Assembly: GCA_020720625.1 (NCBI GenBank)
Contig: DYOH01000020.1
Location: forward strand, 1 to 45,816
Reading direction: 5' to 3'
Source: Acetofilamentum sp.
Lineage (GTDB): Bacteria; Bacteroidota; Bacteroidia; Bacteroidales; DYOH01
Length of the DNA stretch: 45,816 nt
Numbering within the stretch: position 1 is the stretch's first letter; every line of letters starts with the position of its first letter. Of the stretch, positions 32,918 through 35,917 are shown one piece after another. Below the pieces are notes generated by a model. The model was not told the origin of the DNA and searched no databases. It saw only the letters and a list, made by a program, of their open reading frames with translations. The translations under genes and the position numbers were made by a program.

Positions 32918-32955
32918 AGCCATCAAGAGCACAGCCTTTCTTGATGGCTTTTTTT
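32918..32955 (+). terminator. Terminator of the response regulator-Usp unit
   Basis: AGCCATCAAG (32918-32927) pairs perfectly with CTTGATGGCT (32940-32949) around a 12-base loop, followed by seven T residues (32949-32955). The first units of the 9-bp tandem repeat begin inside this T-run. Confidence 0.85.
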
Positions 32956-33182
32956 GTTTAGATTGTTTAGATTGTTTAGATTGTTTAGATTGTTTAGATT
33001 GTTTAGATTGTTTAGATTGTTTAGATTGTTTAGATTGTTTAGATTGTTTAGATTGTTTAGATTGTTTAGATTGTTTAGATTGTTTAGATTGTTTAGATTG
33101 TTTAGATTGTTTAGATTGTTTAGATTGTTTAGATTGTTTAGATTGTTTAGATTGTTTAGATTGTTTAGATTGTTTAGATTGT
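32954..33182. repeat. 9-bp perfect tandem repeat (TTGTTTAGA), about 25 copies
   Basis: 229 bases of uninterrupted period-9 sequence, unit TTGTTTAGA, about 25.4 copies without a single substitution. Because 9 is a multiple of three, several frames stay open and give Phe-Arg-Leu, Asp-Cys-Leu or Ser-Lys-Gln strings that should not be annotated as genes. The array lies between two converging terminators (Usp gene on the left, S24 repressor on the right). There are no spacers, so it is not a CRISPR array. Perfect identity implies recent or ongoing expansion by slippage. The copy number given by an assembly may be inaccurate. Confidence 0.97.
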
Positions 33183-33281: not shown

Positions 33282-34088
33282 CTACGATTCTAAATTAAAT
33301 TTATCTTGAATAAGGCTTAATTGCGATTGTAATTTCGAAATCTGGCCAATAATATCATTCTGTGGAATTTGGGGTGAGGGAATTTCGGGACTGATGTAGT
33401 TTACAAATCGCCAAATTTCTCTTATTTCTCCAACATTCATTTCGTAAGGTTTGTAAATGGGGTTTAGCGAATGTAACTTAAAGCTTCTTTTTTCTTCGAG
33501 CAAATTTTCGACTATCTTAAAAACCAAACCATCGTTATAAGTAAGTAGAATACATGGTGTGTTGGTTTTTAACCGCTGCCAGTCGAGCACAAATTCGCCG
33601 GTAACATAAGCTCCCTGCGGGATGGGCAACATTGAATCGCCACTAATTTGAAAACTACGGTATTTTTTTTCTTTTTCCAGAAACGGGAGTTGGAAAACCG
33701 GTAGTTCGCGAATATACTCAGGGTCGGCAAAACCATTGGTATACCCGGCTTTGGCTTTTTCGGGCACAAGTTCTATGTTTTCTTTGTTTTTGGCATCTAC
33801 CGTAGTAGCGAGTATACGCACTTTGCTTCCGCTTACATATACATCGAACCCACGCTCTATTTCGGAGAGTAAGCTTTCCGAAAGGCTCGATAAATCTACT
33901 TTTACAAGCGTATCTATAGATATTTTGAAATATTCGGAAAAGGCCACCAAAATTTTCATTCCAGGCTCTGCCACATCGTTTTCGTAGCCGCTGAGTGTTG
34001 GCCTTTTAATGCTAATTGCATGAGATACATCGTCTTGTGTTCTTCCGCGGCGTTTACGAAGCAATTTGATATTTTTTCCAAAAAACAT
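33282..34088 (-). CDS. XRE-type repressor with S24 (LexA/CI-like) self-cleavage domain
   Basis: 268 residues. An N-terminal helix-turn-helix (about 4-64; RGRTQDDVSHAISIKRPTLSGYENDVAEPGM) binds DNA. The S24 peptidase domain follows: likely cleavage site A114-G115 (KAKAGYTNGF), nucleophile S152 in ISGDSMLP, and general base K191 in GLVFKIV. Proteins of this type cleave themselves when stimulated by RecA filaments, lifting repression. A C-terminal tail (about 244-265) looks like a short coiled coil. It is divergent from the DNA polymerase IV gene across 155 bases that carry two matching dyads, so it probably represses both that gene and itself. Prophage CI-type origin is possible, but no phage genes are nearby. 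Confidence 0.9.
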   Translation of the reverse strand: MFFGKNIKLLRKRRGRTQDDVSHAISIKRPTLSGYENDVAEPGMKILVAFSEYFKISIDTLVKVDLSSLSESLLSEIERGFDVYVSGSKVRILATTVDAKNKENIELVPEKAKAGYTNGFADPEYIRELPVFQLPFLEKEKKYRSFQISGDSMLPIPQGAYVTGEFVLDWQRLKTNTPCILLTYNDGLVFKIVENLLEEKRSFKLHSLNPIYKPYEMNVGEIREIWRFVNYISPEIPSPQIPQNDIIGQISKLQSQLSLIQDKFNLES

Positions 34089-34114: not shown

Positions 34115-34135
34115 TTTGATTAATTTATAATCGAA
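34115..34135. promoter_or_regulatory. Candidate repressor operator 1
   Basis: TTTGATTA-ATTTA-TAATCGAA, an 8-bp dyad with one mismatch and a 5-base spacer, starting 27 bases from the repressor ATG. It has the same sequence and spacing as operator 2, centre-to-centre distance 23 bases. Confidence 0.6.
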
Positions 34136-34137
34136 AT

Positions 34138-34158
34138 TTTGATTAAAAACTAATCAAA
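34138..34158. promoter_or_regulatory. Candidate repressor operator 2
   Basis: TTTGATTA-AAAAC-TAATCAAA, a perfect 8-bp dyad with a 5-base spacer. The size and symmetry fit a dimeric helix-turn-helix repressor, and it lies between the divergent repressor and polymerase genes. Confidence 0.65.
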
Positions 34159-34184
34159 GATAGGCAAAAAATTTTAAATACAAA

Positions 34185-34243: not shown

Positions 34244-35437
34244 ATGGACAGGGCAATTTTACATTTAGATTTAGACACTTTTTTTGTGTCGGTGGAGCGG
34301 CTTATTGATAGCCGTTTGGTTGGCAAACCTGTTATTGTGGGCGGATTATCCGACAGAGGTGTTGTTTCTAGTTGCAGCTACGAGGCACGCAAATTTGGCG
34401 TGCATTCGGCCATGCCTATTCGTATGGCCAAACAATTATGTCCTCAGGCCATTTTTCGACGCGGAAATATGGATGAGTACAGCAAATTTTCGCACATGGT
34501 TACCGATATTATTGCCGATTCGGTGCCTTTGTACGAGAAAGCATCAATAGACGAACATTATGTTGATTTAAGCGGCATGGAACGCTTTTTTGGCACCGAA
34601 AAACTCGCACATCAAATGCGTTTGCGCATTATTAAGGAAACCGGTTTACCTATTTCTTTCGGATTATCGGTAAACAAAACCGTATCCAAAATTGCTACAG
34701 GCGAGGCCAAGCCCAATGGCGAAAAGGTGGTTTTTGTTAACGAATTAAATGCGTTTTTAGGGCATTTATCTATTCAGAAAATTCCAGGCATTGGTTTAAA
34801 AACCTATCGTTTGCTGCGCACCATGGGTGTAGAAAATATTTCGCATCTGGCGCAGATTCCGCCGGAGATGCTGATGGGTATTTTGGGCAAAAACGGACTC
34901 ACGCTCTGGAAAAAAGCCAATGGTATTGACCCTACACCTGTGAAAGCTTATACCGAGCAAAAGAGTATGAGCTCCGAGCGTACTTTTGAACACGATACAT
35001 CCGATTTGTTGTATCTCAGGCAAACCATTATTCGTCTGGTAGAAAAACTGGCTTTTGAAATGAGATCTAAAAACAAGCTCTGTTCCATAATTTCGGTAAA
35101 AATCAGGTATGCCGATTTTAATACTTTTAGTTCGCAAAAAAACATTGCTTACACATCTATCGATGCCGTTTTGATAGAATATGCACTCGAATTATTTCAC
35201 AAACTCTATTCCCGAAGGATAATGCTTCGTTTGGTTGGAATTAAATTCAGCGGTTTGGTTTATGGTGCTCAACAGCTTAGTTTGTTCGACGACAGCGCCA
35301 AACAAATGAGCCTGATTCTGGCAATGGACAAAATGCGACAACGTTTTGGCGCACATGCAGTGGGCAGAGCTATCAGCTTTTGGTATAAAAATCAGCCCGA
35401 TAATAAAGATATTCAACAGAATTTTTTAATTGATTAA
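34244..35437 (+). CDS. dinB: Y-family DNA polymerase IV
   Basis: 397-residue translesion polymerase. Catalytic carboxylates D9 (HLDLDTFF) and D103/E104 (ASIDEHYVDLSG) are present, with the steric-gate Phe at 13-14 and the finger motif SCSYEARKFGVHSAMP. The thumb has helix-hairpin-helix IPGIGLKTYRLLRTMG. The little finger follows, and a beta-clamp binding motif QLSLF at 344-348. All key residues are intact, so it should be active and error-prone. Divergent from the S24 repressor, with dyad sequences between, and followed by a small gene 12 bases downstream. This arrangement resembles a damage-inducible umuDC-like cassette. Confidence 0.96.
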   Translation: MDRAILHLDLDTFFVSVERLIDSRLVGKPVIVGGLSDRGVVSSCSYEARKFGVHSAMPIRMAKQLCPQAIFRRGNMDEYSKFSHMVTDIIADSVPLYEKASIDEHYVDLSGMERFFGTEKLAHQMRLRIIKETGLPISFGLSVNKTVSKIATGEAKPNGEKVVFVNELNAFLGHLSIQKIPGIGLKTYRLLRTMGVENISHLAQIPPEMLMGILGKNGLTLWKKANGIDPTPVKAYTEQKSMSSERTFEHDTSDLLYLRQTIIRLVEKLAFEMRSKNKLCSIISVKIRYADFNTFSSQKNIAYTSIDAVLIEYALELFHKLYSRRIMLRLVGIKFSGLVYGAQQLSLFDDSAKQMSLILAMDKMRQRFGAHAVGRAISFWYKNQPDNKDIQQNFLID

Positions 35438-35449
35438 AATTTTTACACT

Positions 35450-35917
35450 ATGCTTTTAAATTTTTTGAGTCTTAGAACACAAGCCGATGTTAACGAAATT
35501 ATTTTTATCGAAAATATATTGCGTAATGCACGATATGCCATTTGGATGAAAAATATTTGGTTTACCGATTCTGCATTAAATCGTGTGGTGTTGGAAAAAA
35601 TGAAACAAGGGTTGAGTGTGCACATCATTCTAAGCGAAGATTTTATAGAAGAATATTCCGATTATTTACATTTTGATGAATTTATTTATGCTGGTGGCGA
35701 ATTATTTGTTCTGCCTTCGAAAATAAATCGTAATATAAAAAACAGCCGTTTTATTTTATTAGACAACGAACAGATGATTTATCATAGCTACAATTCTGCT
35801 GCGTTTAGTAATTTTGGCGAGCGCAAATCCGTAACCGCAACAAACCTTTGTTTAAAGGCTTATACCGATTATTTTTTAAAATTGGAGAGATATTCACAAA
35901 ACATCTATCGCCTCTGA
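35450..35917 (+). CDS. Small phospholipase D-like protein with substituted HKD motif
   Basis: 155 residues, 12 bases after dinB and probably co-transcribed. The fold outline resembles one PLD half: an N-terminal strand/helix (ARYAIWMKNIWFTDSALNRVVLEKMKQGLSVHIILS), then AGGELFVLPSKINRNIKNSRFILLDNEQMIYHSYNSAAF. The latter aligns exactly in spacing with HxKx4Dx6GSxN: N98 for His, R100 for Lys, D105 conserved, H112 for Gly, S113 and N115 conserved. Loss of His and Lys predicts no phosphodiesterase activity, so a binding role is more likely. Family assignment is my inference from motif spacing. Its placement suggests work with the polymerase or in the damage response. Confidence 0.65.
   Translation: MLLNFLSLRTQADVNEIIFIENILRNARYAIWMKNIWFTDSALNRVVLEKMKQGLSVHIILSEDFIEEYSDYLHFDEFIYAGGELFVLPSKINRNIKNSRFILLDNEQMIYHSYNSAAFSNFGERKSVTATNLCLKAYTDYFLKLERYSQNIYRL

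Follow-up and report, generated by a model that had tools for sequence, protein, structure and literature searches.

The intergenic region between a repressor gene and dinB in the window (the whole stretch of DNA analysed, 45,816 nucleotides) contains two GATTA-N5-TAATC dyads that, judged from sequence comparison, are very probably real operators of the flanking LexA-like SOS repressor. Both boxes lie inside a 155-bp divergent gap bounded by the start codons of the repressor gene (34088, leftward) and dinB (34244, rightward), with centres at 34125 and 34148, i.e., at a spacing of 23 bp, and with 2 bp separating the box edges (Table 1). Relative to TTTGATTA-N5-TAATCAAA, box 1 has one mismatch and box 2 has none. 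The preliminary description had reported two dyads of the same layout, one perfect and one with a single mismatch, 23 bases apart in a 155-bp gap, and this is exact to the base. When the 45.8-kb window was searched with at most one mismatch allowed, the two boxes were the sole matches, and 100 dinucleotide shuffles returned 0.

Table 1. Features of the repressor–dinB region, in window positions.
Feature	Position	Strand	Description
Repressor gene	33282-34088	-	268 aa; N-terminal HTH_3 (CI/P22 c2 type), C-terminal S24 peptidase
Operator box 1 (left, repressor-proximal)	34115-34135	.	TTTGATTAATTTATAATCGAA; layout TTTGATTA-N5-TAATCGAA; predicted
Putative dinB-direction element	34121-34128	toward dinB	TAATTTAT (TAnnTTRY); in box 1 spacer
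Operator box 2 (right, dinB-proximal)	34138-34158	.	TTTGATTAAAAACTAATCAAA; perfect TTTGATTA-N5-TAATCAAA; predicted
Putative repressor -7 element	34155-34162	-	TATCTTTG (TAnnTTTG); TTTG shared with the outer end of box 2
Possible -33 TTTG	34181-34184	-	18 bp from the repressor -7 element
dinB, DNA polymerase IV (Y family)	34244-35437	+	rightward gene; probable target
155-aa protein	35450-35917	+	family unassigned; 12 bp behind dinB, probably same operon

The N-terminus of the repressor matches HTH_3 (PF01381) above the Pfam cut-off (E 8.8e-13), and the S24 peptidase domain scores 22.7 bits, slightly below the cut-off of 23.3. The predicted cleavage site is Ala114-Gly115 and the predicted catalytic dyad Ser152/Lys191; in the clade alignment the Ala, Ser and Lys residues are present in all 142 members and the Gly in 140. 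An AlphaFold model, computed with 34 relatives as input, has a mean pLDDT of 76, with values above 90 in the N-domain and low confidence in the linker and cleavage region. In this model the N-domain matches P22 c2, SinR and ImmR, and the C-domain matches LexA, UmuD' and lambda CI, with Z up to 12.6 and an rmsd of 1.9 over 103 residues. The protein combines a CI-type HTH, an S24 domain with Ala-Gly and Ser-Lys, and an N5 palindrome in its own promoter, and these features place it in the non-canonical LexA family of Bacteroidetes. Assignment as a canonical LexA was rejected, the N-domain being HTH_3 and lacking the PF01726 winged helix; a search for PF01726 (LexA_DNA_bind) in the window's genome gave no match anywhere, and 12 relatives have matches that are mostly weak.

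Of 198 genomes, about 73 have an ortholog of the repressor; almost all of these belong to the order. Several genomes of the order gave no match in this search, and the gene is therefore not universal there. We read 84 ortholog loci for neighbours and boxes: dinB is divergent from the repressor in 49, and two GATTA-N5-TAATC boxes 23 bp apart, with at least 17 of 20 core bases, occur in 48, as against a best two-box score of 16/20 in 1,680 shuffles. The second box lies at exactly +/-23 in 47 loci, and any other offset was seen at most twice. Orthologous loci that show no clear pair exist, some at contig ends and some with drifted sites. The boxes, the 23-bp spacing and the place beside orthologous repressors are common to dozens of families, and named records with the same setting include Bacteroidales, Prolixibacteraceae and related MAGs. 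A pair is present in 64 of the 73 genomes with the repressor (127 pairs versus 15 for the reversed control) and in 40 of the 125 that lack it (50 versus 41, i.e., background), which over the 198 genomes corresponds to a Fisher p of 7e-15 for co-occurrence; the per-genome pair counts were copied by hand from the result table. The repressor's own promoter carries the pair even where dinB is not adjacent (e.g., L055, L078, L099). Phylogenetic footprinting of box, spacing and place, together with the co-occurrence of repressor and pair, thus backs the preliminary proposal that the dyads form the operator pair of a dimeric repressor.

The sigma-A -7 consensus of Bacteroidetes is TAnnTTTG, with TAnnTTGY as a variant in the same place (PMC9723704). 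Box 2 runs on into CAAAnnTA, the reverse of TAnnTTTG, in 44 of 58 distinct loci, compared with 2 of 1,856 control positions, and TATCTTTG is the probable -7 element of the repressor gene. A -33 CAAA at 16-22 bp was counted in 21 of the 58 loci, a raw count on which nothing here rests. A forward TAnnTTTG that could serve dinB was searched for near the boxes and not found, and TAnnTTRY was therefore tested, a pattern chosen after the data had been seen and PMC9723704 read. Directed toward dinB, TAnnTTRY occurs in the box 1 spacer in 51 of 58 loci and in box 2 in one; for TAnnTTGY the corresponding numbers are 32 and 0, and the window's own element TAATTTAT differs from this better form. Box 1 probably holds a -7-like element of the dinB promoter, with less certainty than for the repressor element. 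In our interpretation, the two promoters overlap face to face, and each is covered by one box.

What the computation shows (the boxes with their spacing and conservation, their association with the repressor, the overlap with promoters, and the conserved peptidase residues) suggests a mechanism whose steps of binding, repression, RecA-dependent cleavage and induction are inferences. One repressor dimer would occupy each GATTA-N5-TAATC box, and since 23 bp is about two helical turns, two dimers could sit side by side. Occupancy would shut both divergent promoters, because box 2 is fused to the repressor -7 element and box 1 probably contains the dinB -7-like element. When DNA is damaged, RecA filaments would induce the repressor to cleave itself at the Ala-Gly site through the Ser/Lys dyad, and this would release both the repressor gene and dinB.

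A distant relative of the 155-aa protein behind dinB (29% identity, L099:460-924) takes the place of dinB beyond an operator pair. The sole relative found, it is the immediate divergent neighbour of a repressor belonging to the same clade, which makes the 155-aa protein a candidate for a new SOS gene. Inspected by eye, the 155-aa protein bears a faint likeness to a degenerate phospholipase D fold. The window also contains a perfect 9-bp tandem repeat immediately 3' of the repressor gene (32954-33182): TTGTTTAGA, in 25.4 copies with 100% match, possibly a fast-changing locus.

The dyad had also been put forward as a searchable motif that defines a regulon, a claim that holds best among relatives, where pairs precede dnaE, SRAP and unlinked dinB genes, but that in the window's own genome leads to essentially one locus. 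The whole-genome scan with one mismatch that had been suggested, run over the 3.8-Mb assembly, gave one further place (C76:2879), which we judge to be a chance match because it straddles the beginning of an aconitase coding sequence. With up to three mismatches the assembly contains 171 places compared with 140 for a reversed-pattern control; at this level the pattern is common, and the strict form is therefore the useful one. A perfect-dyad site with two mismatches (C92, L012) was rejected as a target, being located inside a uracil phosphoribosyltransferase-like gene. At the second dnaE (dnaE2, C14), a lone degenerate box, AATTA-TTTAT-TAATC, is located 2 bp upstream of the ATG, in a position that matches the one used in relatives; this box escapes a one-mismatch search, and dnaE2 is a likely extra target in this genome. 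Also just upstream of dnaE2 (L267), a second dyad, TGTAAGAATATCTTACA, is located a few bases 5' of the degenerate GATTA box. RecA is encoded in the genome; a box was looked for at recA and none was found, and no SRAP gene was found. The regulon here seems limited to the repressor–dinB locus, a small set for an SOS master regulator.

Relatives also have pairs at sites other than the repressor promoter, up to about 75 bp before the predicted target genes. They precede error-prone dnaE in six loci (L241, L244, L246, L254, L256, L257), a small ORF followed by dnaE in L242, SRAP genes in L247 and L253, and an unlinked dinB in L245; in L055 and L078 the repressor has an SRAP-like gene as its divergent neighbour. 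A protein of roughly 101 aa stands behind a pair in three genomes (L228:1734-2036, L248:1751-2056, L250:2051-2356, L251:1774-2067), with the pair touching the start codon and several copies in one genome; a Pfam search with this protein gave no match. The predicted targets in relatives are the SOS set plus the 101-aa protein as a new candidate, which is the composition of an SOS regulon. One genome, G111 (L228-L240), contains fourteen scattered, sharply bounded 44-bp operator-like pairs with unlike flanks, mostly before unrelated genes and many of them 85-160 bp from start codons; they represent either an enlarged regulon or a short dispersed element or repeat. In L255 (2067-2104), an operator-like pair lies 4 bp before an IS1595-family transposase gene, an arrangement that may put a transposon under SOS control.

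Other explanations of the boxes can be weighed against these data. The gap is AT-rich, and the three-mismatch pattern is near background genome-wide, as would be expected if the boxes were chance palindromes, but the absence of matches at one mismatch or less in the shuffled sequences and, above all, the order-wide conservation of box, spacing and place refute this, and we assign it a negligible probability. It is also highly improbable that a different dimeric regulator binds the boxes and that the flanking repressor is not their user. Binding by the repressor is a prediction, which is the point in favour of such a regulator, but the occurrence of box pairs follows that of the repressor gene from genome to genome, the pairs are retained in its promoter at the loci with no adjacent dinB, and a pair still precedes dinB in the locus where that gene is unlinked.

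A CI-type repressor could in principle use the pair in response to a cue other than RecA and DNA damage, with dinB a mere neighbour and the peptidase domain used differently. An S24 domain alone is no proof of a RecA response, some S24 regulators do use the peptidase domain differently, and almost no other SOS target is present in the window's genome. We nevertheless consider this unlikely, as the genes behind pairs in relatives (dinB, error-prone dnaE and SRAP) make up a typical SOS set, the cleavage site and dyad are invariant in the clade, and sister proteins respond to mitomycin C (PMC8565304). The reading that we favour, with considerable confidence, is that the adjacent repressor is a LexA-like non-canonical DNA-damage regulator and that the two dyads are its paired operators.

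The SOS response was long believed to be missing from Bacteroidetes, until a 2021 paper described it there (PMC8565304). Among the SOS repressors of Bacteroidetes, the system described here is likely to represent a third class of specificity, found in environmental Bacteroidales, an order described as lacking an SOS regulator, with paired GATTA-N5-TAATC operators that double as -7 elements of overlapping face-to-face promoters, and a regulon of dinB, dnaE, SRAP and small unassigned proteins. A repressor that is conserved in dozens of Bacteroidales families and reads an operator code of its own would fill part of the SOS gap, and would present a clean case in which SOS repressors keep their target genes while the recognised DNA word changes. 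The suggested construction of operators from promoter elements would limit drift of that word. The motif, the target list and the fixed differences in the recognition helix are all open to experiment.

In Bacteroidetes, CI-type S24 repressors run the SOS response through CTAA-N5-TTAG or GGA-N5-TCC operators (Sanchez-Osuna et al. 2021, PMC8565304), and in other Bacteroidetes, gel shift and mitomycin C induction showed that repressors of the same architecture work in this manner (PMC8565304). Both the CTAA and GGA regulator groups were reported absent from Bacteroidales (PMC8565304), a name that in our analysis denotes the genome-taxonomy order and may be wider than the order in that study. As for the CTAA group, the window repressor has HTH_3 and S24 domains with Ala-Gly and Ser-Lys, a dyad with a 5-bp spacer, sites in its own promoter (autoregulation in the CTAA group), at least two sites per promoter, and predicted targets that, together with those in relatives, include dinB, dnaE and SRAP. 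The half-site is different, GATTA instead of CTAA, and identity is about 35-43%. In the recognition helix, Asn37 and Val39 stand where all 16 CTAA rows have Glu37 and Arg39. In a tree from which the GGA reference WP_075324850.1 was left out, the 16 CTAA-labelled rows all fall in one clade and the 56 GATTA-labelled rows all in the other; because of its boxes and the separate clade, the window repressor was rejected as a CTAA-N5-TTAG ortholog. CTAA-type homologs or paralogs do occur in some genomes of the order (L085-L094), with CTAA-N5-TTAG boxes and divergent from a two-gene repair operon that by eye resembles a radical SAM/uracil-DNA glycosylase pair. The GGA-N5-TCC group of Flavobacteriaceae (PMC8565304) is alike in architecture, N5 spacer and, by prediction, SOS targets, and unlike in half-site. 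Upstream of the clade members examined, no convincing GGA-N5-TCC site was found, and the window boxes differ from it as well; matches in L159-L161 were discarded, as they lie about 116-122 bp upstream and seem to be inside the adjacent gene.

Paralogs of Bacteroidetes SOS repressors are known to have diverged N5 dyads (PMC8565304), and the GATTA half-site appears new relative to the main text of that paper, whose supplements may list some such palindromes. Promoters of sister clade members (L172, L175, L084) have GACAA-N5-TTGTC-like dyads, in which the outer GA/TC is kept and the inner half-site changed. Canonical LexA, UmuDAb of Acinetobacter, HdiR and phage CI/P22 c2 are likewise of S24 or CI type and repress genes of the DNA-damage response or of lysogeny, but their operators are unrelated, and canonical LexA has a winged-helix N-domain that is absent from the window repressor. 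UmuDAb and HdiR have small regulons centred on error-prone polymerases (PMC8565304). The closest functional precedent for the window layout is a regulator of Elizabethkingia anophelis. Placed among the CTAA-group paralogs, it has a diverged N5 dyad (TTAC-N5-GTAA) with a half-site unlike that of the window, located in a divergent promoter that also serves an error-prone polymerase gene; mitomycin C induction and gel shift have both been demonstrated (PMC8565304).
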